In this document: positions 6,527 through 31,136 of the stretch, one piece after another | Numbering within the stretch: position 1 is the first letter of the stretch | How the letters are laid out: each line of letters starts with the position of its first letter | Program-made: the position numbers and the translations under genes | Assembly (NCBI RefSeq): GCF_014621695.1 | Contig: NZ_CP061281.1 | Coordinates: forward strand, 5,394,001 to 5,458,000 | Length of the DNA stretch: 64,000 nt | Direction of reading: 5' to 3' | DNA from: Streptomyces xanthii | GTDB taxonomy: Bacteria > Actinomycetota > Actinomycetes > Streptomycetales > Streptomycetaceae | Notes under the pieces: model-generated | The model's database searches: none | Told to the model about the DNA's origin: nothing | The model's input: only the letters and a program-made list of their open reading frames with translations

Positions 6527-6536
6527 ACGCCGTGTA

Positions 6537-10578: not shown

Positions 10579-10602
10579 CCCTCCGGAAGAACAGGACGCC
10601 GC

Positions 10603-11172: not shown

Positions 11173-11340
11173 GAAATACGTCCGAACAAAAGTCTCGATG
11201 CGCACAACCGTTTGGGTCTGCCGCGGGTCTACACCGCGAGTCAACCGAAGGCTCACTCGAATCACACGGTTTCTTCACCCTCGCGGGTCGCAAGGGCCTG
11301 CGGGGCGCGAGGGCCGTACTTCTCAACTGGAGAAGCATTC

Positions 11341-12222: not shown

Positions 12223-12239
12223 TCGCCTGAGCCGACGCG

Positions 12240-12274
12240 AACGGCCCGGAACCTCCTGGAGGTTCCGGGCCGTT
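12240..12274. terminator. Long perfect hairpin, bidirectional terminator
   Basis: AACGGCCCGGAACCTCC and its exact reverse complement flank a single T, giving 17 paired positions. It lies between the convergent secreted-protein gene and galU, 18 bases from each stop, and ends in TT-rich sequence on both strands. Confidence 0.9.
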
Positions 12275-12292
12275 CGTCTGTGCCGGGGGAGG

Positions 12293-13192: not shown

Positions 13193-13257
13193 GGTGGTGC
13201 GTTCCCCCGTTGCGTGTGATGCGTCGTGCGTCGTGCGTGTGGTCGGTCGGCGGTCGG

Positions 13258-15564
13258 TCAGGCGCCGACGAGGTCGGCGTCGCCCGCGGTGCCGCCCGTG
13301 GTCACGCCGGCCCGGTCGGTGGCCTGCGCGGGACGGGGCGCCGGGGTCCGCTCGGCGAGCGGCAGGACGGCCGGCGTCGCCTCCTGGTTCAGGAAGATGC
13401 GGCGCACGACGCGCTCGGCCGCGTGGCCGTCGTCGTACTGGACGAAGCGCTCGCGGAACGCCTGGCGCAGGGCCGCGGCCCGCTCGCCGTTCCAGGCGCC
13501 GCTGCGGAACACCTCGATCAGCTCGTCCTCGGAGGTCGCGGTCGCGCCGGGGGTCTGGCCGGGCTCCTGCGACAGGAGGTCGAAGTACACGCCGCGCGCC
13601 TTGCTGTAGACGTCCCAGTCGTCCACGTAGGACACGATCGGCCGGTCCAGGCAGGCGTAGTCGAACATGATCGACGAGTAGTCCGTGATCAGGACGTCGG
13701 AGGCCAGGCACAGGTCCTCGACGACCGGGTAGCGGGAGACGTCCTTGATCAGACCCCGCTCCTGGAGGGCGGCGAGCTGCGGGTCGGCGCCGTAGAAGTA
13801 GTGGGCGCGCACCAGCACGACGTGGTCCGGGCCGAGCTCACGGCACAGCCGCTCCAGGTCCAGACGGGGGATGAAGCCCTTCTGGTAGTCGCGGACCGTG
13901 GGGCAGTACAGGATCGCGGTCTGCCCGTCCTGGATGCCCAGTTCGGCGCGGATGCGGGCGACGTCTGCCGAAGTGGCCTGGAAGTAGACGTCGTTGCGCG
14001 GGTAGCCCGAGTCGATGTTCTCGAAGGCGCAGGGGTAGACGCGCTCCCAGATCTCCGTCGAGTGCTGGTTCGAGGAGAGGCTGAAGTCCCACTTGTCGAC
14101 GCGCTCGAGCATCTTGTGGAAGCTCATGTTCTTCGCGGCGGCCGGGAAGCGCTGCTGGTCGATGCCCATCTGCTTGAGCGGCGTGCCGTGGTGCGTCTGC
14201 AGGTGGACCTGGCCGGGGCGCTTGACGATCTCGTTGGGGAAGTTGACGTTGTTGACGAGGTACTTGGCGCGGGCCATGACCTCCCAGTAGCGCGGGGAGC
14301 GGCTGACGACGTAGTCGACGCCCGCCGGCACGTTCTCCTCGTCGCCCGCGCGCACCACCCACACGCCGTGGACGTGCGGGGCCAGCTCCTTGGCCTTGTG
14401 GTAGATCGCCGCGGGGTTGCAGGCCACGCCGCGGTTCCAGTACGCGCTGTAGACCGCGAGGTTCTCGTCGATCGGGCGGCGCTGGTACATGCGGTACAGC
14501 TGGTCGTACGCCTTGCGGCCCAGCACGTTCTTGGTCTTCAGCGCGCGCTTGCGCAGCTTCGACTTGGTCGCGCCGGCCAGCTCGAAGGCCTGGTACGCCG
14601 GGTAGGAGCCGCGCTCCAGGAGCTCGAACCGTACGCCGGTCATGCCCTCGGGGCGGGTGAAGCCGGCCGGCTTGAAGCGGCGGTACTGCTGGGCGGAGCG
14701 CTTGAAGAAGGAGGCGCGGTCCGACGGCACGATGCGGTCCGGGCGGACCAGCGTGAAGAGGAAGTGGCTCACCATGCGCTCGAACATCAGGGCGCGCACG
14801 GGCTCCAGGTGCGGGCGCTCGTCGAGGAACGCGAAGAGCCGGGCGTACTGCTCGAAGATGCCGAAGTGCTTGCGGCCGGGGGTGCGCATCGAGTTGCCCT
14901 GGCGGCGCTGGCGGTACTCCACGCAGACCTGCTCCAGGCAGGCGATGCGCTCCGCGGTCAGCATGGTCTTGTAGACCATGAGAGCGTCCTCGTAGATGCC
15001 GTCGGTGAACGTGAACTCGTTGCCGACGTAGAACTCGCGGCGGTACACCCTGTTCCACACCACGGCGAACATCGTGAGGTACTCGGGGCGCTCCAGCGCC
15101 GTGAAGACGTCCTTGCCCGCGGCGGCGAGCATCTCGCCGGCGGCGCTGGCCTGCACCCGGTTCGTCCAGTACGTGCGGACGTGGTTGAGGAGCAGGATGT
15201 CCGGGTCGGCGGTGAGGTCGAGACGGTCGGCGACGGCCTGCAGGGCGCCCTCGGCCAGGGTGTCGTCGCTGTCCAGGAAGAAGATGTAGTCGCCGCGCGC
15301 CCGCAGCGCGCCGAGGTCGCGGGCCTTGCCGATGCCCTGGTTCTCGGTCAGGTGGACCGGTACGACGCGCTCGTCGCGGGCCGCGTACTCGTCGAGGATC
15401 CGGCCGCACGCGTCGGGGGAGGCGTCGTCGATCGCGACGATCTCGAAGTCCGTGAAGGACTGGTCGAGGATCGAGTCCAGGCAGGCACGCAGATATCCCT
15501 GAACCCGGTAGACCGGCACAACGAGGCTTATTCGAGGGGCGATCGCGTTCTCTGCGTGACTCAT
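13258..15564 (-). CDS. Bifunctional GT2 glycosyltransferase / CDP-glycerol glycerophosphotransferase
   Basis: 768 residues. The N-terminal GT2 domain (about 10-230) begins RISLVVPVYRVQGYLRACLD and has the metal-binding DxD region FFLDSDDTL. The C-terminal half (about 390-740) is a TagB/TagF-type glycerophosphotransferase, with HHGTPLKQMG, LYCPTVRD and DVLITDYSSIMFDYACL. By family it transfers polyol-phosphate units onto a lipid-linked or glycosylated acceptor, as in wall teichoic acid synthesis on the inner membrane face. It is the first gene of a likely pair with galU. The 227 bp upstream (15565-15791) contain an AT-richer stretch (about 15640-15710) that probably holds the promoter. Confidence 0.9.
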   Translation of the reverse strand: MSHAENAIAPRISLVVPVYRVQGYLRACLDSILDQSFTDFEIVAIDDASPDACGRILDEYAARDERVVPVHLTENQGIGKARDLGALRARGDYIFFLDSDDTLAEGALQAVADRLDLTADPDILLLNHVRTYWTNRVQASAAGEMLAAAGKDVFTALERPEYLTMFAVVWNRVYRREFYVGNEFTFTDGIYEDALMVYKTMLTAERIACLEQVCVEYRQRRQGNSMRTPGRKHFGIFEQYARLFAFLDERPHLEPVRALMFERMVSHFLFTLVRPDRIVPSDRASFFKRSAQQYRRFKPAGFTRPEGMTGVRFELLERGSYPAYQAFELAGATKSKLRKRALKTKNVLGRKAYDQLYRMYQRRPIDENLAVYSAYWNRGVACNPAAIYHKAKELAPHVHGVWVVRAGDEENVPAGVDYVVSRSPRYWEVMARAKYLVNNVNFPNEIVKRPGQVHLQTHHGTPLKQMGIDQQRFPAAAKNMSFHKMLERVDKWDFSLSSNQHSTEIWERVYPCAFENIDSGYPRNDVYFQATSADVARIRAELGIQDGQTAILYCPTVRDYQKGFIPRLDLERLCRELGPDHVVLVRAHYFYGADPQLAALQERGLIKDVSRYPVVEDLCLASDVLITDYSSIMFDYACLDRPIVSYVDDWDVYSKARGVYFDLLSQEPGQTPGATATSEDELIEVFRSGAWNGERAAALRQAFRERFVQYDDGHAAERVVRRIFLNQEATPAVLPLAERTPAPRPAQATDRAGVTTGGTAGDADLVGA

Positions 15565-15791: not shown

Positions 15792-17258
15792 CTAGCGGGG
15801 TGCCTGCCAGATCACCGGCGACGCCTGCGCGCCTTCGTCCGGAGCCCCGTCGTCCGTCACCGTCAGACGGACGCCCGGGCGGCCGTCGGGCAGGGTGGCC
15901 CGCGCGTCGACCGAGACGTCGATCCGGGACACGCCCGCACGCCGCGAGGCCGTGGCCAGGGCGCGGCGCAACGCCGCGAGGAGATGGGTCTGGGCCTGGT
16001 CCGGCACCGCGGACTCCACGGCGCCGGTGAAGTGGACGGACGGGCTGAAGCCGAGGACCGCCGCCGCGCCCGCCGTCTCCCGCAGCACCTTGCCGCGGAA
16101 CGTCGACGGGGCGTCCGACGGCGGCTGCTGCAGCGCGAAGATCGTCGTACGGACCTCCTGGACCGTCGACTCCAGCTCGTCCACGGCCTGCGCCAGCATC
16201 GTGCGCACCTCCGCGGCCTGCGCCCGGCGCGCCGCCGTCTCCAGCATCATCCCCGTCGCGAACAGCCGCTGGATCACGAGATCGTGCAGGTCACGGGCGA
16301 TCCGGTCACGGTCCTCGAACACGGCGAGCCGCTCCCGGCCGGCCTGCGCGTCGGCGAGGACCAGCGCGAGCGCCGCCTGCGAGGCGAACTGGGTCGCCAG
16401 CCGGTGGTCCACCGGCGTGTAGGGGCGGGCGCCGGGGGAGCGGGGCAGGGCCAGGGTGCCGATCAGCTTCCCCGCCGCCCGCAGCGGCAGCATCATGCTC
16501 GGCCCGAACAGGCTCCGTACCCGCGTCGTCATCCGCGGGTCGGTCGCCGAGTCGTCGATGAACACCGGCTCACCGGCCAGGAGTTGATCGAGGACCGCCG
16601 TGCCAGGACGGATCGTGGCCCCGAGCAGCACAGCCGGGTCGTCCGTCGTGGCCGCCGCGACGATCTCCATGCCGCCCTCTTCGGTCGGCTGGAGCACCAC
16701 CCCGGCCGCCGCGTCCGCGAGCAGCCGCGCCTGCTCGGCGACCGTCGTCAGGGCGTCCCCCGGGGCGCCGGTGAGCAGCGCCGTCGTCACCGCCGCCGCG
16801 CCCTCGATCCAGCGCTCGCGCTGCCGCGCGCTCTCGTACAGGCGCGCGTTGCCCAGCGCGATGCCCGCCTGGCCCGCCAGAACCCGCAGTACTTCCAGGT
16901 CGGCGCCCGTGAACCCCTCGGGCGCGCGCCGCCCGGTCAGCCGCAGCCGGCCGCACACCGCGCCCTGCACCAGGACCGGCACCGCGAGCAGCCCCGGCTC
17001 GTGCAGCACCGCGTCGTACGGCTCGCCGGGCGGCAGCTCGGGCCGGGCGCCCTCGCTGGTCACCACCTCGACCAGCCGGCCGTGATCGGGGTCGAGGACG
17101 CCGAGCACACCGTGCCGGGCGCCGGTCAGCGCGGTCGCGCTGTCCACCAGCTGCCGCAGCGTGGCCCGCGGTTCGAGGTCGGTGCCGATGGTCAGGACCG
17201 CTTCCAGGAGGACGGACAGGCCGGACGGAGCGCCGGGCTCCGGCCCGCTCGGGCTCAT
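15792..17258 (-). CDS. GAF-GAF histidine-kinase-like protein with truncated ATPase domain
   Basis: 488 residues from the ATG at 17256-17258 (GGAG 11 bases upstream; a GTG seven codons earlier lacks a site). Two GAF domains (about 15-165 and 180-325) are followed by a HisKA_3 dimerisation helix with intact phospho-acceptor His (DRDRIARDLHDLVIQRLF), as in DevS/NarL-partner kinases. The C-terminal ATPase region is badly degenerate. The N-box reads RALATASRRAG with no Asn, the G1 box is TDDGAP, and the chain ends about 20 residues later with no G2 box. It probably cannot bind ATP normally. It lies 24 bp after the MreB-like gene. Confidence 0.8.
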   Translation of the reverse strand: MSPSGPEPGAPSGLSVLLEAVLTIGTDLEPRATLRQLVDSATALTGARHGVLGVLDPDHGRLVEVVTSEGARPELPPGEPYDAVLHEPGLLAVPVLVQGAVCGRLRLTGRRAPEGFTGADLEVLRVLAGQAGIALGNARLYESARQRERWIEGAAAVTTALLTGAPGDALTTVAEQARLLADAAAGVVLQPTEEGGMEIVAAATTDDPAVLLGATIRPGTAVLDQLLAGEPVFIDDSATDPRMTTRVRSLFGPSMMLPLRAAGKLIGTLALPRSPGARPYTPVDHRLATQFASQAALALVLADAQAGRERLAVFEDRDRIARDLHDLVIQRLFATGMMLETAARRAQAAEVRTMLAQAVDELESTVQEVRTTIFALQQPPSDAPSTFRGKVLRETAGAAAVLGFSPSVHFTGAVESAVPDQAQTHLLAALRRALATASRRAGVSRIDVSVDARATLPDGRPGVRLTVTDDGAPDEGAQASPVIWQAPR

Positions 17259-17282
17259 CGTGAGGGTCGCTCCGTACACCGG

Positions 17283-18320
17283 TCAGTCGGCCAGCGGGTC
17301 CAGGACCATCGGCTGGATCTTGCCCTCCATCATCGCGCCGAGCCCCTGCACCGCGCACACGTCGGGCCGTTCGGCGATGTGCACGGGCATGCCCGTGGCG
17401 TCCCGCAGCATCTGGTCCAGGCCCGGCAGCAGCGCCGAACCGCCGACCATCATGATCCCGCGGTCCGCGAGGTCGGCCACCAGGTCCGGCGGGCAGTCGC
17501 GCAGCACCTTGCCGATGCCGTCCAGGACCGCCGTCAGCGGGGTGTGGATGGCGCGCCGCACCGCCGAGGTGTCGACGTGCACCGAGCGGGCCAGGCCCGT
17601 CGCCACGTCCCGGCCGTGGATCTCGGTCTGCTCGGGGCCGCTCGGCGTGAGCCCGTTGCCGCTCAGCGCGAGCTGCAGGGGGCGTACGGACTGGGAGGGC
17701 AGCATCAGCTCATGGTGCTGGCGCAGGTGCTGCACCACGGCGTGGTCGATGGCGTCGCCGCCGACCGGGATCCGCTCCGCCGTCACGATCGCGCCGAGCG
17801 ACAGCACCGCGATCTGCGTCGTCGCCGCCCCGCACACCATGATCATGGTGGCCTCGGGCTGCTCGACGGGCAGGCCGCAGCCGACCGCCGCCGCGATCAG
17901 CGTGTCGACCAGCTCGACCCGTCTCGCGCCGAGCCCGACGAGGGTCTCCACGGCGGCCCGCTGGGCGAGCGGGTCCGCGTCGTGCGGGGTGCACGCCGCC
18001 GCGCGCAGCCGGGGCTTGCGGCGCAGGGCGCGGCGCAGCTTCTCGCCCAGCAGGTGACGCAGCATCCGCTGCGCCATCTCGATGTCGACGACGGTGCCGC
18101 CGGAGACGGGACGCACGACCCGGATGTAGTCGGGGGTCCGCCCGGTCATCTTCTCGGCGAACTCACCGACCGCGATCAGGGCGCCGGTACGGGTGTTGAC
18201 CGCGGCCGCGCTCGGCTCGTCGACGACGAGACCCGCGCCCTTCACGTACACGCGGGTGCGGGCGGCGCCCAGGTCGACGGCGAAGTGGCAGCGGCGCAGC
18301 TGCTCCAGACTGACGGTCAT
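17283..18320 (-). CDS. Degenerate MreB/Mbl-like actin-family protein
   Basis: 345 residues from the ATG at 18318-18320 with GGGAGG 8 bases upstream; the longer frame to 18401 lacks a site. The overall MreB fold is recognisable: phosphate-1 strand HFAVDLGAARTRVYVKG, later GDAIDHAVVQHLRQHH, and C-terminal GIMMVGGSALLPGLDQML. The phosphate-2 motif normally reading DIGGGTT is VCGAATT, and the usual IEEP block is VDTL, so nucleotide binding or hydrolysis is doubtful. MreB proteins normally polymerise under the membrane to direct wall synthesis. S. coelicolor has a divergent third MreB homologue (SCO6166); correspondence here is only a guess. Confidence 0.82.
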   Translation of the reverse strand: MTVSLEQLRRCHFAVDLGAARTRVYVKGAGLVVDEPSAAAVNTRTGALIAVGEFAEKMTGRTPDYIRVVRPVSGGTVVDIEMAQRMLRHLLGEKLRRALRRKPRLRAAACTPHDADPLAQRAAVETLVGLGARRVELVDTLIAAAVGCGLPVEQPEATMIMVCGAATTQIAVLSLGAIVTAERIPVGGDAIDHAVVQHLRQHHELMLPSQSVRPLQLALSGNGLTPSGPEQTEIHGRDVATGLARSVHVDTSAVRRAIHTPLTAVLDGIGKVLRDCPPDLVADLADRGIMMVGGSALLPGLDQMLRDATGMPVHIAERPDVCAVQGLGAMMEGKIQPMVLDPLAD

Positions 18321-18435
18321 GGCAGTTCCTCCCGAGAGCGCAGACCGTGGGCGGGCCGTCGGAATGCGGCCCACTAGAAATCGTGCGTCCGTGGCGGGCA
18401 TCGCGCGCGCTGGAGTGGGCCGGGTGGGGCTGGGC

Positions 18436-21400
18436 TCAATGGGGGTTGCGCGTGCGCACGATGTCGGTCAGCCGGGCCAGGTCCCGGAAGACGTGACGGG
18501 CTCCGGCGCGCTCCAGTGCCTGCTCGGCCTGCGGGGACGCCGCGTAGCCGATGAACGGCAGGCTGAGCTGCCGGGCCGCCTCCAGCTCGGCGGGCTGAGA
18601 GCCGATCACCAGGCCGCGGGGTGTGGGTGATCCGGGCTGGTGCAGGGACCGGAGCAGCGCGTCCGGGTGCGGCAGCAGCCTGGGCGGATCCCCGACACGG
18701 CCCTGCACCGCCCGTCTCACGGGCAGGGCGCGACTGTCCACGTACTCCCTGACGACGTGTGAGGAGACGTCGGAGAACACGGCGACGGGCAGCCCCGCCG
18801 CGTCGAGGGCGCGGACCAGGCCGTCCGCGCCCTCGACACGGCGGGCGGTGCGCAGCGCGCGGGACTCGACGGCGTCGAGCCGCTCGCGCAGGGGGCGGCT
18901 CAGGCGAGGGTGGCGGGCGAAGGCGCGCAGGACGTCGAGAGGATGCGGCTCGGCGCCCGGGTGCGGGTCGAGCGGGGCGCCGCTCAGCGCCTCCTCCGGA
19001 TCGCGCAGCTCCGCCACCAGCCCGGTCAGTTCCAGTGCGGCGCGGCGGGCGTCCCCCTGGCGGGGATACAGGTGCACGAGCAGGCCGTCGAAGCCGACGA
19101 GCGCGCACTCGGCGGAGTCGATCAGGCGGGCCACGTCGTCGCGCGCCGGCTTCTGCGGGGACGGCGGGCGGGCGGTCTCCGGGGCGGGCGCGGCCTGCGC
19201 GTCGGGGAGCACCCAGCGCACGGTGTGCCCGGGGATCGGGCGGACGCGCGCCGGATCGGCCGGGGGGACGCCCAGCCGGAGATTCCAGGCCAGCCGGGCC
19301 GGCAGGTCCGGGCCCCGGGACCGGCGTGCGGCGGCCTCGACAGGATCGGTGATCTGCACGACGGCGCGGGCGCCGGGCAGCACCTCGTCCAGGGGGTACG
19401 TGTACGCGCGCAGGTCGACCTCGTAGCACTCCACGTACGCCTCGCGCGGGCCGGGCGGGTCGAGGGTGCGGACGCCGTCCGGGCGGACGTAGACCAGGGT
19501 CGTGCCCGGGGCGGGCGGGACGCCTTCGGCCGGGAGGTCGAGGGGGCCCCGGACGAGGGACTCGGGCGGCGGCCCGGCGGGCTCGTCCGGCGCGTCGGGG
19601 GCGGTCGTCGGGACCGGACGGCCGATCAGGCGGAGCAGTGCCTCGGTGTCGTAGCGGTTCGAGAGGGCGGCGTGGGCCAGGGCGAGGGCGTCGGTGCGCA
19701 GGTCGGTGCCGGGCAGGACGACGGCGTCGCTCGTGGCGTCGGCGAGGACCCGGCCGAGGTACTGGCGCAGGGCCGGGTCGCCCATGGCCTCGTACGCGAC
19801 CAGGGAGTCGGCCACCTGGAAGAGCCGGTCGAGCCGTCCCGGGACGGTCTCCATCAGGGGGAGCCGGTCCGGGGGGACCAGTTCGTTGAGGCGGTCCGCC
19901 GCGTCCGGCCCCTCCGTGTAGCGGATCAGCTGGGCCAGGACCCGGAGCCCGTCCTCGTGGCCGAGTGCGGCCCGGGCCACCTCCTCCAGGGCGTGCCGGC
20001 TGCTGCCGCCCAGGTGGATCGTGCAGTCGAGCCGGTCGGCCAGGATCGAGGCGCACAGGGCGCGGTGGCCGCGGTGGCGCTGGACGGCGAGGCCTTGCAG
20101 GGCGGCGACGACGTCGGACACGTCGAGGCCCTGGTCTTCCGCTCTGTCGAGTGCCTCACCGGCGGTGCTCACGGCGTCCGGGGCGTGGCGGCCCAGGGAG
20201 CCGATCAGGGCGCGCCGGCCCCGGGGCATGCTCAGTACGGCGGCGGCGATCTCCAAGGACGGGGGGCGGGAGCCCAGTGCGGGTGACAGGCCGCTGCGGC
20301 GCAGTTCGGCGTTGAGGTCGGCGACCAGCGCGGAGCGCGCCTGCTCCCGGTGGCGCAGCGACTCGTCGAGCACCCACGCCAGTTGGCGTTCCACCGACGC
20401 CGAGAGGTGCTGGTGGATCCAGTGGGTGGGAGGGTCCCCTACGGGGCGAAGGCCCAGGACGCGAGCCCGGTCCGCCGTGACGAGCCGTGCGGAGACCGCC
20501 ACTTCCAGCGGGGCGGGGGAGAAGCCGGGAGTGACCTTGGGGATGCGGACGCCCTTCGGCCAGAAGGTCACGGAGAGGTCGCCCGTGAGCTGGAGGTCGG
20601 CGGCCGTCCCGGCGAGCCGGGTGACGACGGCTTCGAGGAGGCGGTCCAGTGCCTCGGGCGTGGCGATGAGCTCTTCGTGCAGATGCGGGGAGGAGGTGGC
20701 CGCCGTGTGGTCCGCCTCGGCGAGGTCGGCGCTCGCGGCCAACCGGCCGGCCAGAACGGACAGTTGATTGCTCCGGCCGTCGGGGGCACTGAACAGCACG
20801 GAGGCGTGGCTCGGCGCGCTCACGGCCGGCTCGGGCTCCGAGGGCGTCTTCGCCGACGGGGCGGGGACTAGCGGCACCCGGGACTCCCGGTCCAGGTCGG
20901 CCCGCAGCGCGAGCAACGTCAGGCGCAGTTCGGTGAGTTCGGCGCGGGCCGCCTCCGCGCCGGGGCCCGGGACGCCGTCCAGTGGGGTGCCTTCGTACAG
21001 GTCGAGGACGCGCTGGACGAGGGCGCGGGTGGAGCCGAGGGTCAGGGGCGTGCGGTTCGTGTAGGCGGTGTCCGCGGTCCGCGCCGCGTTCAGGAGCTCC
21101 GTCACGTCGAGCAGGTCGGCGCTCGTGTGCACCGCGTACCCGTCGTCGACCTCCGCGATCAGACCGGCGCCGGCCCCGCGCAGCCGGGACACGCAGGCGG
21201 CGAGCGCCGCGTCCGGGTCCTCGGGGCGGTCCTCGGGGTCCCATACGGCGTCGGCCAGTTCGGCGCGGGTCAGCGGGTGGCCGGTGCGCAGGAGCAGGGC
21301 GCACAGCACGGCCGCGTCGACGGGGGAGTAGAGCGGGATCTCGGGGGCGTCGTCGCCGTCGTTCGGGAGGACCTTGAGCGGGCCGAGCAGGCTGTAGACG

Positions 21401-23781
21401 AGCGGGGGGCGGATCGTGGCGCCGTCGTCGACGAGCGCGAGCCGTGCGTGGCCGTCGGCGAGGCCGCGCAGATTGCTCTCCATCTGCCCGGCGCCGCCCG
21501 AGAGCAGGGTCTGCGTGAACCCGGGCGCGCAGCCCAACTGGCGGCACAGTGCGGCCAGTTGTTCAGTGTCGCGGTCGAAGGCGCCGGTCTGGCCGGCGCT
21601 CGCGGGGGCGAACTGGACGAGCTTCACCGTGCCGTCGGGCAGCAGCATCGCCCGCGATCCGCGCACCCCGCCATGGGCGAACCCGGCGTCGTGGACCGCC
21701 ACCAGAGCGCCGCCCAGGCCCGCGGCCACCCGGGTCAGCAGGGAACCGGGCAGCCGCCCCGGGGTGAGGGAACCGAGCGGGACGCCGTCCAGGTACTCCA
21801 TCACCAGATAGGGGACCGGAGCCTCCGTGTCGGCGTCGGACACGGCGACGACGTTCGGATGCCGCAACTGCCGCAGCCGCTCGGCCATGTGACGGAACGC
21901 GGGGCGCCCCCGCGCGGGCAGCGACGGGTACAGCTTCACCGCCACGGCCGCCCCGGACCCCGTGTCCCGCGCCCGCCACACCGAGCCGCCGGGCCGCACC
22001 TGCCGCACGAGCCGGTAACGCCCGCCGAGCAGCACCCCCGGGGCGGGGACGGCCGGCGCCGCGGAGCCGCCCATGCGCTCCAGCGTCTCGGCGCTGACCT
22101 CCGCCACCGCCCCGTCCCCGCCGGGGTCCGCCCCCGGCGACGTCGTCACGGGCAGTTCCGGCGGCACCGTGTCGACCAGCGCTTCGATCAACGCGCCGCG
22201 CTCCGCGAGGAGTCGGGCCGTGCGTCCGCGTTCGCTGCGCGGCAGGGAGCGCAGCAGCAGCTCCCGGACGCCGGGGCGGAACGCGTAGGAGCCGGGCGGA
22301 CCGGGGACCTCCACGAGCATGCCCGAGACGATGATCTCGGCGAGGTGCGCCGGGCGCGGATCGGGTTCCAGGACGGAGTGGACGAGCCGCATCACCGGCA
22401 GGTGCGGCACTCCGAGCGCCAGATGCCCGGCGAGCCGGAACGCCTCCGGCGAGGCGGATCCCCGGAAGCCGAGCACGAGCCGCTCGGCGTCGGTCATCGG
22501 GTCCGGATCGTCGTCCGGGCCGGCCGTCCCGTAGGGGTCGACGGTCCCGTACCGCTCGACCGTCCTGTACTGGTCCACCGTCCCGGACCGGTCCGTCGCG
22601 CCGTACCGGCCCGCCTCCGACAGGTCCGGGCCCGGGTCCGGGGCCGTCGCGTCGGCGGGCCCCGCGGGGGTCAGCCAGGCCGCCGCGCCCGGCACCCGCG
22701 CGCCGCCCGGCGCGGCCGTCAGCCGGGCCCAGTGGGACAGCCAGCGGGGGTCCGCCTCCAGGACCGGGAGCGCGAGCGCGTCCGGGGCGTCCTCGGGCCG
22801 TGGCCAGGCGTCGGGATCGTACGGGGCGAAACCCAGCGCGGACGCGGGCGCCGCCGGGTGCGGGGCGGTGAGGCGGCCCGGTACGGCGGGCAGGGCGGTG
22901 CCGGGCCACAGGCGTTCGGGGAGCGGCTGGAGCACCGCGAGCGGGACGCGCCGGGCCAGGGCGTGCAGGGTGCCGTACCAGCGGGCGCCCGCCTCCCCGG
23001 AGTGCCACTGCGGGCCGGAGCAGTCGCTGAGGACCAGCACGGCGGTCCGGCCGTCGGGCGGCACGACCAGGCCGTGGATCCGGCCGTCCGGCGACGCCTC
23101 GTGGACGGCGATCGTACGGAAGACGCCCGACTGCCCGAAGAGTCCGTGCAGTTCGCGCAGGAGGGGGCGCCAGACCGGCATGGTCGGCCCGTTGTCGTGG
23201 ACCAGCACGAGCCGCAGCCAGCGCTCGGGCGCCGGGCGCAGTACGGGCAGCCAGGCGTCGGGTCCGCCGCCGAGCCGGGCGATGCGGTCGGCGGTGGCGT
23301 GCTCGTCGAGCTCCGGCACGCCCGTCGGCGACGGCACCCGGCGCTTGAGGGGCCGCAGCGCGCGCTGCAGGGGCAGCGGGTGCCGCAGCATCGGCGGCGT
23401 GGGGGCCAGCGGCCCGGCCGGACCGGCGGCCTGGTCCTCGGCCACGTAGAGGGTGACCCGGGGCGGCTCCGGCATGAGCGGCCGGGGCTCGGGCGGTGCC
23501 GGCGCGGGCTGGTCGACGGGGGCCGGTGGCGTGCGCGGGCCGGGCGGCGGGTGCGGCGGACCCGCCGGTGCCGTGGATCCGTCGCCGGACCCCGCGCCAC
23601 CGGAAGCGCCACCGGGAGCGGAAGCGCCGGAGGGCCCCGCGTCGCCCGTGCCCGTGGCGCTCTCCGCGCGGTCCAACGCCCGGGCCAGCCACAGCAGTTC
23701 CGCCAGCTCGGCCGGGGTGGGCCGCTCGCCGTCCGCCGCCGCGGCCAGCGCCGCCGCGAGCCGGTCGAGGTCACCTGCCAT
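18436..23781 (-). CDS. Giant SAV_2336-type scaffold: vWA-like, pseudokinase, wHTH-BTAD, helical region, degenerate HAD
   Basis: 1781 residues from the ATG at 23779-23781, 5 bp after the MoxR stop. Visible layout: a short helical N-terminus and Pro-rich linker; a vWA-like domain (about 185-300) with LVLVHDNGPTMPVW and VLVLSDCSGPQW; a helical block (about 425-560). A pseudokinase follows (about 583-790): VAVKLY keeps the Lys, but the HRD loop reads HGGVRGSRAMLL and DFG reads VQFAP. Next are a winged helix plus BTAD-like TPR (about 794-963), a mixed alpha/beta and helical region (about 990-1390) and a C-terminal HAD-like domain (about 1556-1781). In the HAD domain the nucleophile Asp is replaced (LVGFDGLL) and motif IV is IGSQPAE. 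Probably a cytoplasmic signalling platform. Confidence 0.85.
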   Translation of the reverse strand: MAGDLDRLAAALAAAADGERPTPAELAELLWLARALDRAESATGTGDAGPSGASAPGGASGGAGSGDGSTAPAGPPHPPPGPRTPPAPVDQPAPAPPEPRPLMPEPPRVTLYVAEDQAAGPAGPLAPTPPMLRHPLPLQRALRPLKRRVPSPTGVPELDEHATADRIARLGGGPDAWLPVLRPAPERWLRLVLVHDNGPTMPVWRPLLRELHGLFGQSGVFRTIAVHEASPDGRIHGLVVPPDGRTAVLVLSDCSGPQWHSGEAGARWYGTLHALARRVPLAVLQPLPERLWPGTALPAVPGRLTAPHPAAPASALGFAPYDPDAWPRPEDAPDALALPVLEADPRWLSHWARLTAAPGGARVPGAAAWLTPAGPADATAPDPGPDLSEAGRYGATDRSGTVDQYRTVERYGTVDPYGTAGPDDDPDPMTDAERLVLGFRGSASPEAFRLAGHLALGVPHLPVMRLVHSVLEPDPRPAHLAEIIVSGMLVEVPGPPGSYAFRPGVRELLLRSLPRSERGRTARLLAERGALIEALVDTVPPELPVTTSPGADPGGDGAVAEVSAETLERMGGSAAPAVPAPGVLLGGRYRLVRQVRPGGSVWRARDTGSGAAVAVKLYPSLPARGRPAFRHMAERLRQLRHPNVVAVSDADTEAPVPYLVMEYLDGVPLGSLTPGRLPGSLLTRVAAGLGGALVAVHDAGFAHGGVRGSRAMLLPDGTVKLVQFAPASAGQTGAFDRDTEQLAALCRQLGCAPGFTQTLLSGGAGQMESNLRGLADGHARLALVDDGATIRPPLVYSLLGPLKVLPNDGDDAPEIPLYSPVDAAVLCALLLRTGHPLTRAELADAVWDPEDRPEDPDAALAACVSRLRGAGAGLIAEVDDGYAVHTSADLLDVTELLNAARTADTAYTNRTPLTLGSTRALVQRVLDLYEGTPLDGVPGPGAEAARAELTELRLTLLALRADLDRESRVPLVPAPSAKTPSEPEPAVSAPSHASVLFSAPDGRSNQLSVLAGRLAASADLAEADHTAATSSPHLHEELIATPEALDRLLEAVVTRLAGTAADLQLTGDLSVTFWPKGVRIPKVTPGFSPAPLEVAVSARLVTADRARVLGLRPVGDPPTHWIHQHLSASVERQLAWVLDESLRHREQARSALVADLNAELRRSGLSPALGSRPPSLEIAAAVLSMPRGRRALIGSLGRHAPDAVSTAGEALDRAEDQGLDVSDVVAALQGLAVQRHRGHRALCASILADRLDCTIHLGGSSRHALEEVARAALGHEDGLRVLAQLIRYTEGPDAADRLNELVPPDRLPLMETVPGRLDRLFQVADSLVAYEAMGDPALRQYLGRVLADATSDAVVLPGTDLRTDALALAHAALSNRYDTEALLRLIGRPVPTTAPDAPDEPAGPPPESLVRGPLDLPAEGVPPAPGTTLVYVRPDGVRTLDPPGPREAYVECYEVDLRAYTYPLDEVLPGARAVVQITDPVEAAARRSRGPDLPARLAWNLRLGVPPADPARVRPIPGHTVRWVLPDAQAAPAPETARPPSPQKPARDDVARLIDSAECALVGFDGLLVHLYPRQGDARRAALELTGLVAELRDPEEALSGAPLDPHPGAEPHPLDVLRAFARHPRLSRPLRERLDAVESRALRTARRVEGADGLVRALDAAGLPVAVFSDVSSHVVREYVDSRALPVRRAVQGRVGDPPRLLPHPDALLRSLHQPGSPTPRGLVIGSQPAELEAARQLSLPFIGYAASPQAEQALERAGARHVFRDLARLTDIVRTRNPH

Positions 23782-23786
23782 CGTCG

Positions 23787-24788
23787 TCAGCCGCCGTCGT
23801 CGGGACGCGCGCCGAGCCCCGGCAGGAGCTGCTGGGCGAGCTCCTCGCGGGACGCCGCGTCCAGGCCCGCCGCGCCCGTGAGGTACAGCGCGTTGAGCAA
23901 CTGGTCCGTGGCCAGCTCGCCCGCGTCGGCGCGCCGCAGGAACCGGCCGATCAGCTCCTCGGCGTACCCGTCGGTCTCGCCCAGGTGCGCGTCGACGATC
24001 GCGGCCAGCTGGTCCCGGCCCGGGCGGCGCAGCCGCAGCCGGACGCAGCGGCGCAGGAACGCGGGCGGGAACTCCCGCTCCCCGTTGCTGGTCAGCACCA
24101 CGAACGGGAACGCGCGGCAGCGCACCCGGCCGGCCGCGACCGGCACCGTCTCGTCCGTACCGTCGGCCCGCACCCGCGCCTCGGTGCCCGCGCGCAGCAG
24201 TTCGGGAATCTCGTACTGGCCCTCCTCCAGCACGTTCAGCAGGTCGTTCGGCAGGTCGAGGTCGCCCTTGTCGATCTCGTCGACGAGCAGCGCCCGCGGC
24301 CGCTCGTGCGGCAGGAGCGCGGTGCCGAGGGGGCCGAGCCGCAGGTGGTCGGCGACGTCCGCCACGCCTTCCGCGGGCGGACGCCGCTCTCCGCGGGCCG
24401 CGTACAGGCGGGAGAGCGGGTCGTAGCGGTACAGGCCGTCCGCGAGCGTCGAGCGGCTCGTCACGTTCCAGCGCAGGACCGGGCCGAGCCGCAGCTCGCG
24501 GGCGACGGCGTAGGCGAGGGAGGACTTGCCGGTGCCGGGCGGCCCGGTGACCAGGAGCGGACGGCGCAGGTACAGCGCCGCGTTCACCAGGTCGACGCTC
24601 TCCGGCGTCGGCCGGTAGGTGTGGGCGCGGTGCAGCCGGTCGGGCGAGACCGCCGCCGTGTCCGCGTCCTCGGCAGGCGGCGGCAGGACCGGGCCGCCGT
24701 CGAACGCGCGCCAGGGCGGCGGGGCGGGCAGCCGGTCGATGCCGTCGTGCGGCGCGGACGCTCCCGTGTACACGGACCACTGCGGCAT
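23787..24788 (-). CDS. MoxR-family AAA+ ATPase
   Basis: 333 residues from the ATG at 24786-24788 (GGAG 11 bases upstream). A 50-residue Pro-rich N-terminal tail precedes the AAA+ core: Walker A GPPGTGKSS (about 81), Walker B ALLVDEIDKGD (about 165), the MoxR-specific insert DLPNDLLNVLEEGQYEIPEL, sensor 1 VLTSNGEREFPPAFLRRC (about 232) and a helical lid. MoxR ATPases act as chaperones that remodel or load vWA-domain partners. The downstream gene, 5 bp away, encodes a vWA-like domain, and the upstream gene a VMAP-C-like protein, so the three probably form one complex. Confidence 0.93.
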   Translation of the reverse strand: MPQWSVYTGASAPHDGIDRLPAPPPWRAFDGGPVLPPPAEDADTAAVSPDRLHRAHTYRPTPESVDLVNAALYLRRPLLVTGPPGTGKSSLAYAVARELRLGPVLRWNVTSRSTLADGLYRYDPLSRLYAARGERRPPAEGVADVADHLRLGPLGTALLPHERPRALLVDEIDKGDLDLPNDLLNVLEEGQYEIPELLRAGTEARVRADGTDETVPVAAGRVRCRAFPFVVLTSNGEREFPPAFLRRCVRLRLRRPGRDQLAAIVDAHLGETDGYAEELIGRFLRRADAGELATDQLLNALYLTGAAGLDAASREELAQQLLPGLGARPDDGG

Positions 24789-24847
24789 GTTCGGCTCGTC
24801 TCCGTACGTCGTTCGATTCGTCGTCGTTCGTGGATGATGCGGGTCGA

Positions 24848-26500
24848 TCAGGCGACCGGGCAGTGGCGGTGCAGTGCCTCCCGGTCCGGGGCCGGGAAGC
24901 AGCGCGGGGAGTCCCACAGCAGCTGGATGTCGTGCGCCCAGTGCTGCTCCTGCGCGCTCGCCCGCTCCCGCAACGCCATGATGTGCTGCGGGAGTTCGTC
25001 GAGCGGCAGACCGGACACGTACGTGCCGAGGGCGTCGAGGAACGCCGTGCCCGGGCACGGCGTGCCGTCCTCGTGGCCGCCCGCGCAGCCGGTGCGCGGC
25101 CACAGCAGCACCGGGACCGGCTTGGCGAGCGCCGTGTCGAAGTGCGGCCGCGGACCGGGACCCGGCGGCGCGGCGAAGCCCACCACGTCGGCCCGGGCCA
25201 GGTCCGACTGGCTGGGCGGCGGACCGTCGGAGCAGTCGACGCGGTGCACCCCGGACGCCGGCCGGTCCCCGCGCGCCCGCCAGCTCTTCGCGAGCCGGCG
25301 CCGCCGGCCACCCTCGCGCCGGCTGTGCGCGGTGACCACCACCGGGTAGGCGCAGCCCAGCGGCGTCGGGTCGCCGTCGCCCGCGGGCCAGCGGTCCACC
25401 GGCCAGTTGAGGAACGGCCGGGGCAGCTCGAAGGCCACCAACTCGTCGGTGTCGTCCGGGAGATGGTCGATCGCGGTGTCGATGACCGACTCGACGTAGC
25501 CGGGCACCTCCGAGCTCGGCAGCGTGCGCGGCTCCTCGACCAGATGCGGATGGCCCTCGTGGTACGCCGACACGGTCACCCGCACCTCGTCCTCGCCGGC
25601 CCCGCTGTGCTCCACGGTGAACACCACCGGCGTCCAGGCCGCCGGGGCCCGGCCCGGCCGCTCCCGCGCGCTCTCGCCGAGCAGCTCCTCGAGCCGGTCC
25701 GCGAACCGCTCGGCGACCTCCGGCTCCGGCGCGTTCAGCGCGTGCCACGCCGCCATCGGCAGGGAGCGCAGCTCGTGCGAGGGGACGGGCGGCGCCCAGG
25801 GGCCCGCCGCCTGCCGGTACAGCCGCTCCGGACGGCAGTCGAGCCCAGTCCGCAGCGCCTTCTCCACCAGCGCGTTCAGCCGGGCCGGGCCCGGCAGGTA
25901 CAGGACGAGGTCCTCCCAGTACCGGACCATGACCGACAGGGGCATCATCCGGCCCGTCATCGTGCCCGCGCCGCCCGTCACGCTCGTGACGATGCCGACG
26001 ACCCGGTTCGTGCCCGCGACGGTGAGGGCCGCGCCGCTGAACCCGGAGCGCAGCGGCTGCCCGTGCGCGAGGTCCGCGACCAGCTCGACCCACTCGTCGC
26101 GGACCCGGGTCGGGCTCACGGTCCGGTACGCGGCCTGCGTGCCCTCGTCGAAGCTCTTCGGGAAGCCGTACGCGTGCAGGGTCGGCGCCCGGCCGTCGGC
26201 GCCCGCGTACGCCTCGCTCTCCGTGCCGAACCGGGCCGGTGCCACGTCGACCTCCCGGGCCAGCTCCAGCACCGCCAGGTCACCCGGCGCGGTCGCGTCG
26301 CCGTGCCAGCCCGCGCCCACCAGGACCCGGGCCTCCACCGGGCGTTCGGACCGGCGGTTGGGGAACGTCACCGTCAGTGGCCCGTCCGCGCCGGCGACGA
26401 CGTGCGCGCAGGTCAGCACGGTCCGTCCGGCGATCAGGAAGCCGGACCCGAGAATGCGCCCGGCCCGCTCGATGCGGGCCTGCCACTGGCAGTCGTTCAT
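24848..26500 (-). CDS. Trypsin-like serine protease fused to a VMAP-C-like domain
   Basis: 550 residues. The N-terminal chymotrypsin-fold domain (about 10-215) has an apparently complete catalytic triad: His33 in LTCAHVV, Asp about 74 in PGDLAVLEL, and Ser about 155 in RSGFSGAALTV. There is no signal peptide, so it should act in the cytoplasm. The C-terminal half (about 270-550) has the pattern LVAFELPRPFLNWPVDRW and conserved Trp/His residues. This matches what I know of the vWA-MoxR-associated protein C-terminal domain, a proposed regulated module of conflict systems. Its ATG overlaps the stop of the Trypco1 gene by 4 bases, and the MoxR gene follows after 59 bp. Confidence 0.85.
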   Translation of the reverse strand: MNDCQWQARIERAGRILGSGFLIAGRTVLTCAHVVAGADGPLTVTFPNRRSERPVEARVLVGAGWHGDATAPGDLAVLELAREVDVAPARFGTESEAYAGADGRAPTLHAYGFPKSFDEGTQAAYRTVSPTRVRDEWVELVADLAHGQPLRSGFSGAALTVAGTNRVVGIVTSVTGGAGTMTGRMMPLSVMVRYWEDLVLYLPGPARLNALVEKALRTGLDCRPERLYRQAAGPWAPPVPSHELRSLPMAAWHALNAPEPEVAERFADRLEELLGESARERPGRAPAAWTPVVFTVEHSGAGEDEVRVTVSAYHEGHPHLVEEPRTLPSSEVPGYVESVIDTAIDHLPDDTDELVAFELPRPFLNWPVDRWPAGDGDPTPLGCAYPVVVTAHSRREGGRRRRLAKSWRARGDRPASGVHRVDCSDGPPPSQSDLARADVVGFAAPPGPGPRPHFDTALAKPVPVLLWPRTGCAGGHEDGTPCPGTAFLDALGTYVSGLPLDELPQHIMALRERASAQEQHWAHDIQLLWDSPRCFPAPDREALHRHCPVA

Positions 26501-26853
26501 CGGCCGGCCGTGTCCTCCTCCGCCGGGCCGGGGCCGGAGGACCAGCTGAGCTTGACCACCAGATGCCCCTCGGCGGCGCCCTTCGTGATGACGGCCCCGA
26601 CCTCCGCCGACATCTTCACGCCGAACTCGATCTCCACCGCGTCCGGCTTCAGCGCGCCGTCCCGCAGCACGCGCAGCGCCGACTCGGCCGCCGAGCGGAC
26701 CGCGCCGAGGGACTGCTCGAAGGTGCGGGAGGCCCGCACCGCGTCGTTGTCCCGGTTCACATGCCGGGCGCCGTCCGGCTCCGCGTCCTCGCCGACCGCC
26801 TCGAACAGCACCGGCGCACCCTCGGTGACCTCGAACTCCACCAACCCGTCCAC
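26497..26853 (-). CDS. Trypsin-co-occurring domain 1 (CU044_2847-like) protein
   Basis: 118 residues from a GTG at 26851-26853 with an AGGGGGGA ribosome site 7 bases upstream; in-frame codons further upstream have no site. It is a small beta-rich protein beginning VEFEVTEGAPVLFEAV, with the family signature AVEIEFGVKMSAEVGAVI and a following hydrophobic strand HLVVKLSW. This domain is known from comparative genomics to sit next to trypsin-like proteases in NTP-dependent conflict loci, and its biochemical function is unproven. Its stop overlaps the protease start (ATGA), so the two are translationally coupled. It is the first gene of the leftward set; the promoter must lie within 26854-27027, shared with the divergent subtilisin. 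Confidence 0.82.
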   Translation of the reverse strand: MDGLVEFEVTEGAPVLFEAVGEDAEPDGARHVNRDNDAVRASRTFEQSLGAVRSAAESALRVLRDGALKPDAVEIEFGVKMSAEVGAVITKGAAEGHLVVKLSWSSGPGPAEEDTAGR

Positions 26854-27027
26854 GACTTCGTCCCCCCTCAGCCTCGTCCCTGCCTCCCCGCCATTGTGCC
26901 CTGGCGGGAAGGTGTCACGGCGGTCATCCGCCACCACAGTTCAACTCCGCTGACGCAGAAGGTCGTTCACACTCCTCCTAGCACTCTGGCACCACCCCCG
27001 ATCGGAAGCCTGCAAAGAGAGGCCAAG
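26854..27027. promoter_or_regulatory. Divergent promoter region between the VMAP-type operon and the subtilisin gene
   Basis: 174 bp between divergent starts. It is less GC-rich near the subtilisin end. No convincing -10/-35 hexamers or dyads were recognised, so promoter content is inferred from gene orientation only. Confidence 0.5.
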
Positions 27028-30000
27028 ATGACCAGAGGACCAGTAGCGAGACGTACCGCGGCGCTGTTGTCGGCAGGGCTCACCCTCGCCCTGCTGCCGT
27101 TGGCGGGAGCGCACGCCGCACCGGACGGCACCGGCCCGACCGGCCCGGACACCCCGGCGCGGCAGACCACCAAGGCCGCCCGCGCCGCCCACACGGTGAC
27201 GCTGGTCACCGGCGACAAGGTCACCGTCACCGACCTCGGCGGCGGCAGGAAGACCGTCGACGTGAAACGGCCCCAGGGAGCCGACGGCACCGTGCGCACC
27301 CAGGTGAGCGACGGACGGATCACCGTCGTACCCGAGGAGGCGCAGCCCTACCTGGCCGCCAAGACCCTCGACCCCCGGCTCTTCGACGTCAGCGCCCTGA
27401 TCGAGCAGGGCCTCGCCGACAACAAGGCCGACGCGACCCCGCTCATCGTCACCTACAAGGGCAAGAGCGCGCGCTCCGCCGCACTCACCCCCAAGGGCTC
27501 CGAGCGCACCCGGAAGCTGTCCAGTGTCGGTGGCGCCGCACTCGCCGCCGCCAAGGGCCGCACCTTCTGGAACGCGGCCACGGAGAAGGACGCGTTCGCC
27601 GACGGCATCGCCAAGGTGTGGCTCGACGGCCGGGTGAAGGCCGACATGGAGCAGTCCAACGCGCAGATCGGGACGCCGAAGGCGTGGGAGGCCGGGCTCA
27701 CCGGCAAGGGCGTCAAGGTCGCCGTCCTCGACACCGGCTACGACACGACGCACCCGGACCTCGCCTCGCGCGTGAGCGAGTCGAAGTCGTTCATCGCCGG
27801 TCAGGAGGTCGCCGACCGTCAGGGCCACGGCACGCACGTCACCTCGACCGTCGGCGGCTCCGGCGCCGCCTCCGACGGCAAGGAGAAGGGCGTCGCCCCG
27901 GACGCCACGCTCGCCGTCGGCAAGGTGCTCAGCGACGACGGCTTCGGCACCGAGTCCGAGATCATCGCCGGCATGGAGTGGGCCGCCAAGGACATCAAGG
28001 CGAAGGTCGTCTCCATGAGCCTCGGCTCCTCGGAGGGCAGCGACGGCACCGACCCGATGGCCGCCGCCGTCGATTCCCTGTCCGCCGAGACCGGCGCCCT
28101 GTTCGTGATCGCGGCCGGCAACGCCTACGGGCCCGGCACGATCGGCTCGCCCGGCGCCGCCGACTCCGCCCTCACCGTCGGCGCCGTCGACAGCCAGGAC
28201 GAGCGGGCCGAGTTCTCCAGCCAGGGCCCGCGCTACGGCGACCAGGGGCTGAAGCCCGATGTGTCGGCCCCGGGTGTGGGCATCCTCGCCGCCCGCTCCT
28301 CCCTCGTCGCCGGCTCCGGCTCGTACACGACCATGAGCGGTACGTCGATGGCGACGCCGCACGTCGCGGGTGTCGCCGCGCTGCTCGCCCAGGCCCACCC
28401 GGACTGGACGGGCGCGCAGCTCAAGGACGCCCTGATGTCGACCTCGAAGCAGCTCGACGACTCGGCGTACGCCATCGGCGCGGGCCGTGTCTCGGTTCCC
28501 GACGCCGTCGCCGCGAAGATCACCGCGACCGGCAGCGCCGACCTGGGCTTCTTCAAGTGGCCCTACGAGAGCAATGAGCCGGTCACCAAGAAGGTCACCT
28601 ACTCCAACTCCTCCGATCAGTCGGTGGAGTTGAGCCTCGCGGCGGAGGGCGCCTCCGACGGGGTCGTGGCGCTCGCCGACGACAAGCTGACCGTGCCCGC
28701 GCACGGCACCGCCTCCACCACCGTCACCGGCGACGGCAGCAAGGCCGCCGTCGGCAACGTGAGCGGGCGGATCGTGGCGAGCGCCGCCGGGACCCCCGTC
28801 GCGCACACGGCGTTCGGCCTGGTCAAGGAGGAGGAGCGGTACACGCTCACCGTCCACGTGAAGGACCGGGACGGCGAGCCGACCCCCGCGAACATCGTCT
28901 TCCAGGAGCTCGCCGAGGGCACCGACCCGGGCATCGTCGCCGTCGGTGACTCCGGCACCGTCCAACTGCGCCTGAAGCCGGGCACGTACACCGCGGACAC
29001 CTTCCTCGACGTGCGCGGCGCGAGCGGTCCCGACTCGCTCGGCCTCGCCTACCTCTCGAACCCCGAGATCACCCTCGACCAGGACCGCGAGATCACCCTC
29101 GACGGACGCACCCTGCGCGAGACCGGGCTCCGGCTGCCCAAGGACACCGACCCGCGCCAGCGCCTCATGGAGTACGACCGCAAGGCGAACGGCGCCGACG
29201 TCCTCGGCATCGTCCAGGTCCCGATCAAGTACGACTCGCTGTTCGCCGCGCCGACGAAGAAGGTCACCGGCGGCAGCTTCGAGTACCGCACCGTCTGGCG
29301 GCACGGACAGCCTCGCGTCGCCGTGGACGGCATCGGCGAGACCTTCGAGCAGCCCGGCTCCACGCTGCTCCAGGGCCGCACCAGGCTCGGCCTCGTCGAC
29401 GCGGGCAACGGCGCGCCCGGCGCGTACGCGGACAAGGACGTGCGGGGCAAGGCCGTCCTCGTGCACGCCGACGGCACCCTCACCCCGGCGCAGATCGCGC
29501 AGGCCGCCCAGGACGCGGGCGCCAAGGCCTTGTTCATCGGCGACGACGCGCCCGGCCGTCTCAACACCGTCTTCTACGACGAGAACTACGAGGACCGCCC
29601 GCTGCAGATCGCGAGCGTGAACAAGGAGGACTTCGCCCGGCTCCAGACCCGCGCCCGCGACGGCCGCCCGCTCGACATGACCGGCACCAAGGACGCCTCG
29701 TACATGTATGACGTGTCGAACGGCTACACGGGCGCCGTGCCCGACCGCGGCCTCCTCTACGCCCCGGACGGCAAGGACCTCGCCACCGTCGACACCACGT
29801 ACTACGGCGGCGACCGGAAGGCCGACGGCGGTGAGTTCCGTTTCTCGATCACCGACACCTTCAAGGTCGGCGTCGGATTCCTGGAGCGCCACACCTTCCC
29901 TGACCGGCGCACCGACTACGTGTCCATGGAGCCGGGCCAGAAGTGGCACGAGTCCGTCATCGTGCCGGGCCTGGAGGAGCGCTCCGGACTGGTCACCTAC

Positions 30001-30717: not shown

Positions 30718-30740
30718 CCCTCTGAAAAAATGAGTTCGAG

Positions 30741-30786
30741 GCCGGGGCACGGCGCGGAGCACCTCCGCGCCGGGCCCCGGCTGTTT
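30741..30786 (+). terminator. Intrinsic terminator of the subtilisin gene
   Basis: GCCGGGGCACGGCGCGGAG pairs with CTCCGCGCCGGGCCCCGGC (one mismatch) around a 3-base loop, followed by TGTTT. It starts 24 bases after the protease stop. Confidence 0.85.
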
Positions 30787-30861
30787 CGTATGCCGGTACG
30801 CAACCGCCCGCCATGTGGACATGTCTTGTGGCGGCGGCGTGTTCGCGGCAAGGATGGGTGC

Positions 30862-30960
30862 ATGGCCCCTGTACTCGTCTCGCGTCGTCACGTGGATCTG
30901 CTGCGTGTCTCCACGATGCTGTGTCGGGCCATCTGTCTGCGCGCTCCGTCCGGCTGCTGA
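30862..30960 (+). CDS. Cysteine-containing leader peptide upstream of the sulfonate operon
   Basis: A 32-residue ORF (MAPVLVSRRHVDLLRVSTML, then CRAICLRAPSGC) with an AAGGATGGGTGC ribosome site. The pattern SRRHVDLLRVS-x-x-LC is one I recognise from short leader peptides found before sulfur-metabolism operons in streptomycetes. It contains three Cys codons, with the last Cys codon directly before the stop, and a terminator-like hairpin starts 24 bases later. That arrangement suits attenuation: ribosome stalling at Cys codons when charged tRNA-Cys is low would prevent terminator formation and allow ssu expression. The regulatory mechanism is inferred. Confidence 0.8.
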   Translation: MAPVLVSRRHVDLLRVSTMLCRAICLRAPSGC

Positions 30961-30984
30961 AGCAGCCCCGTAGGCGGCGTCGCC

Positions 30985-31016
30985 GGGCCTTCCCTCGCTG
31001 AAGGCCCCTTCTTCTT
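30985..31016 (+). terminator. Attenuator hairpin between leader peptide and ssuD
   Basis: GGGCCTTC-cctcgct-GAAGGCCC, a perfect 8-bp stem, is followed by the T-rich run CTTCTTCTT. Upstream, GCAGCCCC and GGCGGCGTCGCCGG segments (30961-30987) can pair alternatively and overlap the left arm, as an anti-terminator would. Confidence 0.75.
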
Positions 31017-31136
31017 CCCTGTTCTCACCTGTCCGACGTGCTCCCGCGCGCCGCCCCGCCCGTGTCCGTGCCCGCGTCCCGGGCCGTCCGGCGGCCGGCG
31101 CCGGCACGTCATCACGCCATGAGCCCGAGGTGCCCC

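Follow-up and report, generated by a model that had tools for sequence, protein, structure and literature searches.

The stretch of DNA considered here, ‘the window’, comprises 64,000 nucleotides (positions 5394001–5458000) of the main contig of the 8.35 Mb Streptomyces xanthii genome (NZ_CP061281.1). Four tightly coupled genes on its minus strand, as read from the sequence and its translations, encode a small Trypco1 protein, a trypsin-like protease joined to a VMAP domain, a MoxR-type ATPase and a giant protein of the von Willebrand factor type A (vWA) kind. Judged by its profile matches, motifs and gene order, this locus is almost certainly a VMAP ternary system of the trypsin/Trypco1 subtype. 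It is a copy of an already described kind of putative ‘conflict’ system, and an earlier note, made from the sequence alone, had read its identity correctly in outline. In the working that we favour, and to which we give a probability of about one half, the C-terminal ‘tail’ of the vWA protein would sense, the MoxR ATPase would remodel, and the VMAP trypsin would act as the effector; the direction of this signal is the uncertain part. The present analysis adds that the vWA tail looks enzymatically dead across relatives, that it carries here a tandem EAD2 insert that is rare among them, and that the site has a series of deletions in some of which Trypco1 survives alone.

The gene for Trypco1 (‘trypsin-co-occurring domain 1’) starts with GTG at 26853, and has a purine-rich stretch 5′ of this start that resembles a ribosome-binding site. 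Its stop overlaps the start of the trypsin/VMAP gene at ATGA; 59 bp then separate VMAP from MoxR, and 5 bp separate MoxR from the vWA gene. Direct reading and translation bear out the four tightly packed genes of the earlier note at their coordinates (Table 1). Read 5′ to 3′, the order VMAP, MoxR, vWA is the one expected for VMAP ternary systems, and is also seen in relatives; the subtype is marked by a trypsin domain in VMAP and a Trypco1 gene next to it. The Trypco1, VMAP-C and MoxR-type AAA assignments are upheld by direct profile matches. In Pfam, Trypco1 scores 89.8 bits (cut-off 24.6) and VMAP-C 134.1 bits (cut-off 27), and MoxR matches AAA_5 and displays WSVYTG (for WxhapG) and PPWRAF (for PsWRxa), the N-terminal motifs specific to the MoxR proteins of these systems, besides GPPGTGKS and LLVDE. 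PADLOC gives only partial matches, which fall on the kinase, ATPase and protease components of other systems; Trypco1 matches nothing there.

VMAP ternary systems were described in 2020 by Kaur et al. in eLife (PMC7159879), from comparative genomics, as the earlier note had stated. Passages of that paper list the trypsin–Trypco1 pairing, the MoxR motifs WxhapG and PsWRxa, inactive kinases, winged helix-turn-helix (wHTH) domains and derived, possibly inactive HAD domains. The present locus is like these systems in its VMAP–MoxR–vWA order, its MoxR N-terminal motifs and its trypsin-bearing VMAP with a Trypco1 neighbour, and its vWA protein is like theirs in having an inactive kinase, a wHTH and a derived HAD. 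The supposition that such a domain set is unusual in one streptomycete operon does not hold: the set was described in 2020, and among 121 sampled Streptomyces genomes (E ≤ 1e-5) VMAP-C occurs in 101 and Trypco1 in 96. The four-gene order and its co-occurrence are conserved. With MoxR as the query, VMAP is present at all of the best 80 of at least 320 related loci, and Trypco1 at 78 (all but L089 and L122). Missing profile matches to VMAP-C or Trypco1, or homologues that never co-occur, would have counted against the earlier note by its own account; we looked for both and found neither.

The vWA component is identified indirectly. Pfam vWA models fail to match the giant protein (E ≤ 1) or any of 22 aligned rows of the region (E ≤ 10), and a profile of the region finds no PDB sequence. 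Profile comparison with ViaA was uninformative, and so, as regards vWA, was a fold search with the predicted model, in which a single domain filled the list and only kinases were among the matches listed. A vWA domain is nevertheless likely, on the basis of gene position, the SAV_2336 model, two aspartates expected after vWA strands 1 and 4 (D196 and D253, invariant in 22/22 rows), and a predicted fold in which strands and helices alternate (mean predicted local distance difference test score 61; 60–84 per ten-residue block across residues 191–290). The ‘vWA-like’ call of the earlier note stands, then, on motifs, position and predicted fold, and not on a vWA profile. For the N-terminal extension of these proteins, PMC7159879 prints the motif [D/E]xxx[D/E]xxxa. 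At the printed spacing, this motif has no match in residues 1–120 here and matches in 8 of 205 relatives; ExxExxW, in the same extension, occurs in 192/205, and here as E25xxE28xxW31.

Distance matrices for VMAP and MoxR correlate at r = 0.88 (n = 75). Correlations with the flanking genes are 0.31–0.60 for MoxR and 0.40–0.53 for VMAP, and the two flanking genes correlate with each other at 0.32. We infer from the VMAP–MoxR value that the system forms one coevolving complex, in support of the ‘one functional complex’ proposed before.

The protease and the ATPase of the system are apparently catalytically competent. The trypsin triad is H33, D74 and S155; among the 80 relatives the histidine and the aspartate are each present in 76 (four gaps each, that of L089 stemming from an automatically chosen start), and the serine in all 80. 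In MoxR, G9, W26, R27, K88, D170, E171, R246 and R247 are present in 80/80 relatives, and W4 in 76/80. The kinase catalytic loop, in contrast, occurs in none of the 205 vWA proteins (189 distinct), and the HAD motif DxDGT in one. The tail has no recognizable live enzyme, yet the protease and ATPase are preserved; for this reason we favour tail sensing, relayed through MoxR to a trypsin output. The likely effector is the protease itself, with the variable tail as a sensor or scaffold, rather than enzymes borne by the vWA protein that the protease frees. The vWA protein would be both scaffold and sensor, its exchangeable tail binding a protein of invader or stress origin. MoxR, probably a hexamer, would use ATP to remodel the vWA–VMAP complex, and the remodelled complex would switch on the VMAP trypsin, the terminal effector, to cleave host or invader proteins. 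Trypco1 would hold or tune the protease, and in this copy oligomerization of the vWA protein would be aided by its tandem EAD2 domains. The same sensor–MoxR–protease scheme is proposed in PMC10907252 for copies linked to diversity-generating retroelements (DGRs), and this supports it.

Passages of PMC7159879 argue for the reverse wiring, and we regard it as a possible but less probable account of this locus. There, VMAP is the sensor, MoxR and the vWA protein remodel, and the VMAP trypsin cleaves the vWA protein to free its C-terminal domains—non-catalytic decoys and a SARP-like DNA-binding module in our case—as effectors. The variable VMAP-M part of VMAP could bind a ligand, the SARP-like winged helix could act as a freed transcription factor, and decoy pseudoenzymes would fit the dead kinase and HAD. 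Such a scheme needs an effector to free, however, and the tails of this clade are mostly without a recognizable active enzyme. Moreover, whole stretches of tail differ between otherwise similar vWA proteins: eight pairs at 85–89% identity in the N-terminal part, all of which include L139, have uncovered inner stretches of 223–400 residues, and further pairs with differing stretches occur at 70–82%. Such a changing tail, with complete vWA proteins beside the MreB-like gene ranging from about 967 (L117) to 1,723 amino acids (L099), also speaks for the tail as the sensor.

Several points weigh against tail sensing with a protease output. Besides the contrary argument of Kaur et al., conservation within VMAP is lowest in VMAP-M (mean identity of the 80 relatives to this copy 0.41, compared with 0.49 for the trypsin and 0.47 for VMAP-C), which also fits VMAP as the sensor, and the pseudoenzymes may be decoys. 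Not every tail is plainly dead: L091 retains the HAD DxDGT motif, and one of 53 tails scanned matches NB-ARC. The locus L076 (Streptomyces mexicanus) has Trypco1, VMAP and MoxR with no vWA match in reach, although the scheme requires the vWA protein. Sequence, profile and fold searches gave the vWA fold no independent confirmation, and a search of the S. xanthii genome for an EAD2 partner elsewhere gave none above the cut-off. Finally, searches of the open-licence literature in PubMed Central found comparative genomics and no experiment on any VMAP system. As to the loci named, L076 may be a natural system with another third partner, several other relatives’ loci are cut by contig ends, and that of L091 lacks the MreB, subtilase and carboxyltransferase flanks.

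In passages that contrast the two wirings, PMC10907252 stands opposite to PMC7159879: in one, VMAP senses and frees vWA effectors; in the other, the vWA tail senses and switches on the protease. The present clade, where the protease triad persists but almost every tail enzyme that can be recognized is dead, should allow the two to be told apart cleanly.

The operon sits at a fixed chromosomal site, marked by the MreB-like gene, a core gene found in 120 of the 121 genomes with or without the operon. A VMAP query at E ≤ 1e-10 matches 37/121 genomes, many through the trypsin part alone. Among 20 regions fetched from matching genomes, 16 hold the system beside the MreB-like gene, contig ends truncate two, L057 has the system but not the flanks of this site, and L058 has VMAP pieces only; L060, separately fetched, is a system away from the site. 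We surveyed system-free MreB-like sites in 79 further genomes (80 stretches, of which L221, a second stretch from one of these genomes that lacks the marker gene, was dropped); 22 more genomes, with a more distant or partial MreB, lay outside the survey. At five sites (L162, L169, L188, L200 and L213) the sequence breaks off at a contig end within 1.5 kb; the system is absent from all of the 74 that are readable. An outer flanking gene is kept at 26 of the 79, a carboxyltransferase-like gene at 23 and the subtilase alone at three.

Eight of these 26 flank-keeping sites bear scars of the operon. Five have a lone Trypco1 gene (L151, L157, L161, L182 and L211) and three the 3′ end of the vWA gene only (L143, L184 and L193); a weak kinase match on the opposite strand in L145 was left out of the count. 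In L182 a trypsin start also remains, similar over 35 residues and stopping after about 50, and in L184 the VMAP leader, by our reading, runs into the HAD end. This pattern suggests recurrent loss at a fixed site more than the mobility of an island. An origin in phages or other mobile elements was rejected: phage records give no match to VMAP or Trypco1 (E ≤ 0.01), and plasmid records give two weak matches, to the trypsin part of VMAP. Genes resembling Trypco1 are, however, present in 47 plasmid records, always below 60% identity. One contig from a viral collection (L222) encodes a MoxR 39% identical to this one, and may be a mislabelled host contig.

All five lone Trypco1 genes are free of internal stops and score above the Pfam cut-off. 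L151 and L211 share the open reading frame (ORF) that follows, so they probably represent one event, leaving at least four events in which Trypco1 was kept. At both of these scars an ORF of about 505 amino acids (L151 12802–14319; L211 7200–8711) stands in the operon’s place and has, by reading, a start resembling a twin-arginine (TAT) signal. Between the two, the Trypco1 coding part is 96.6% identical, compared with 83% over 150 bp on its upstream side and, counting aligned positions, 67% over 200 bp downstream; the coding changes are seven synonymous and four non-synonymous (Fisher p = 0.013, from one pair and 11 changes). The genome of L182 (G116) has no Trypco1 match besides the scar copy and gave no VMAP-C match; VMAP-C is still present at other places in each of the remaining four genomes. 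Survival of lone, intact Trypco1 fits a protective or separate role, and a small gene that outlives its operon hints that Trypco1 may restrain the protease. Retention could also be chance, because Trypco1 lies at the operon’s edge, which favours survival, and three scars keep the opposite edge. Natural deletions at one site, five of them with intact Trypco1, offer a concrete hypothesis for a domain family present in most of the genus sample. A tentative extension, which we think unlikely to be right in full, is that Trypco1 restrains the VMAP trypsin, a killing effector with MoxR as its gate and the vWA tail as its sensor; that the scar copies are selected protease-immunity or anti-protease genes; and that the EAD2 insert turns the vWA protein into a self-assembling activation platform.

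The same site bears on two further explanations. The operon might be a housekeeping or developmental regulator of the mycelium (of cell-wall growth, for example, beside the MreB-like gene) and not an immunity system, and its chromosomal location, mostly at one site, and the lack of phage matches would agree with this. It is nonetheless a doubtful reading. The MreB-like gene is nearly universal whether or not the system is there, and adjacency may therefore be position only, so that a functional partnership with it is unsupported; the system has been deleted repeatedly, and the tails differ between similar proteins, and both points speak against such a regulator. Least probable of all is a selfish or relic locus of no benefit to the host, kept by addiction to a protease toxin and its Trypco1 antidote: the five lone Trypco1 scars would suit it, but operon inheritance tracks the flanks about as well as the flanks track each other, and the loci L051, L052, L089 and L122 are without Trypco1 yet keep the trypsin catalytic motifs, so Trypco1 is no obligate antidote in cis. 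The genomes of L051 and L052 (G103 and G007) do have Trypco1 matches elsewhere.

The EAD2 insert, of about 270 residues, lies between the alpha/beta domain shared with most relatives and the beta-rich and HAD end of the vWA protein. The evidence supports two copies and makes a third probable: copies B and C align by profile, and A does not. A scan of the 205 rows, with a profile built from this protein and three relatives, finds EAD2 in nine, which represent eight distinct proteins because L062 and P0020 do not differ; four, P0007 among these, have it in tandem. Of three weaker EAD2 matches elsewhere in the S. xanthii genome (L004, L005 and L008), the first two look on reading like ordinary enzymes, a short-chain reductase and a glycosyltransferase, rather than partners. 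For the alpha/beta domain (residues 993–1125), an iterated profile matches 189/205 vWA proteins, some by drift into HAD. The best PDB matches of its profile are TALE repeats and were taken as composition artefacts; a degenerate cyclic nucleotide (cNMP) cyclase or Band-7 was suspected, and nothing in the analysis shows either.

This insert sets the copy apart from the account in PMC7159879, where, in the passages on them, EADs are typically carried by VMAP or lie terminally on a core component; here they lie inside the vWA protein. The DGR-linked systems of Thiohalocapsa (PMC10907252) share MoxR, the vWA protein, trypsin–VMAP and Trypco1, and their vWA protein carries hypermutated C-type lectin domains, of which Pfam matched none here. 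The S. xanthii genome has a second VMAP system outside the window (L059; G000:C1:2531000-2550900, positions 1010–14178), alike in its trypsin plus VMAP-C (1.1e-28), MoxR, SAV_2336-like protein and Trypco1 match just upstream of the trypsin. Unlike the present copy, L059 is linked to a two-copy precursor of a YxD-tail cyclophane ribosomally synthesized and post-translationally modified peptide (2.4e-29), an FxsB-family radical SAM maturase (1.5e-129) and an FxSxx-system TPR protein (7.4e-231), and its proteins, when scanned, gave no EAD2 match. The RavA–ViaA pair is not known to include a VMAP or protease. The locus is like that pair, and like other MoxR–vWA chaperone pairs, in joining a MoxR AAA+ ATPase to a vWA partner (PMC7159879).

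Table 1. Features of the VMAP locus and its neighbours, in window coordinates
Feature	Position	Strand	Size or residues	Match or remark
Trypco1 (NCBIfam CU044_2847 family)	26497-26853	-	118 aa	PF19493 1.9e-25; NF041216 1.1e-21
VMAP component: N-terminal trypsin-like peptidase, C-terminal VMAP-C	24848-26500	-	550 aa	PF20028, PF13365
Trypsin-like peptidase domain	25991-26449	-	18-170	PF13365 (Trypsin_2) 8.4e-12
VMAP-C domain	24905-25591	-	304-532	PF20028 9.2e-39
MoxR-type AAA+ ATPase	23787-24788	-	333 aa	PF07728 1.1e-7; N-terminal motifs
vWA component, SAV_2336 family	18436-23781	-	1,781 aa	NF041121 2.8e-116
SAV_2336 N-terminal region: helical extension, likely vWA-like core, C-terminal extension	22198-23715	-	23-528	NF041121 2.8e-116
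Pseudokinase domain	21427-22038	-
SARP-like winged helix and BTAD-like region	20884-21417	-	789-966	AfsR model 3.6e-26, far below its own cut-off; Trans_reg_C 1.7e-4, also below its cut-off
Alpha/beta domain of unassigned fold, common to most relatives	20407-20805	-		Iterated profile
Probable EAD2 copy A (weak)	20164-20349	-		16.6 bits, below cut-off 23.8; no support from profile comparison
EAD2 copy B	19876-20109	-		37.2 bits, above cut-off 23.8; Pfam 6.5e-7
EAD2 copy C	19621-19809	-		16.5 bits, below cut-off; profile comparison with B, probability 92, E 5.7e-7
Degenerate HAD domain	18439-19137	-
Large subtilase	27028-30717	+		Peptidase_S8 and PA domain
MreB-like gene	17283-18401
Sensor kinase	15792-17279			GAF and HisKA_3
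Putative wall polymer gene	13258-15564			Glycosyltransferase and CDP-glycerol glycerophosphotransferase domains

The subtilase is divergent from the operon, and a number of relatives have it next to the site, including some that have lost the operon. A minus-strand ORF at 26941-31107 was rejected as a gene and read as antisense to it. On the other side, the MreB-like gene lies just downstream of the operon and adjoins the sensor kinase gene, a pairing repeated in many relatives. Beyond these, a single protein combines the glycosyltransferase and CDP-glycerol glycerophosphotransferase domains, and its family name points to a wall polymer of the teichoic-acid type.

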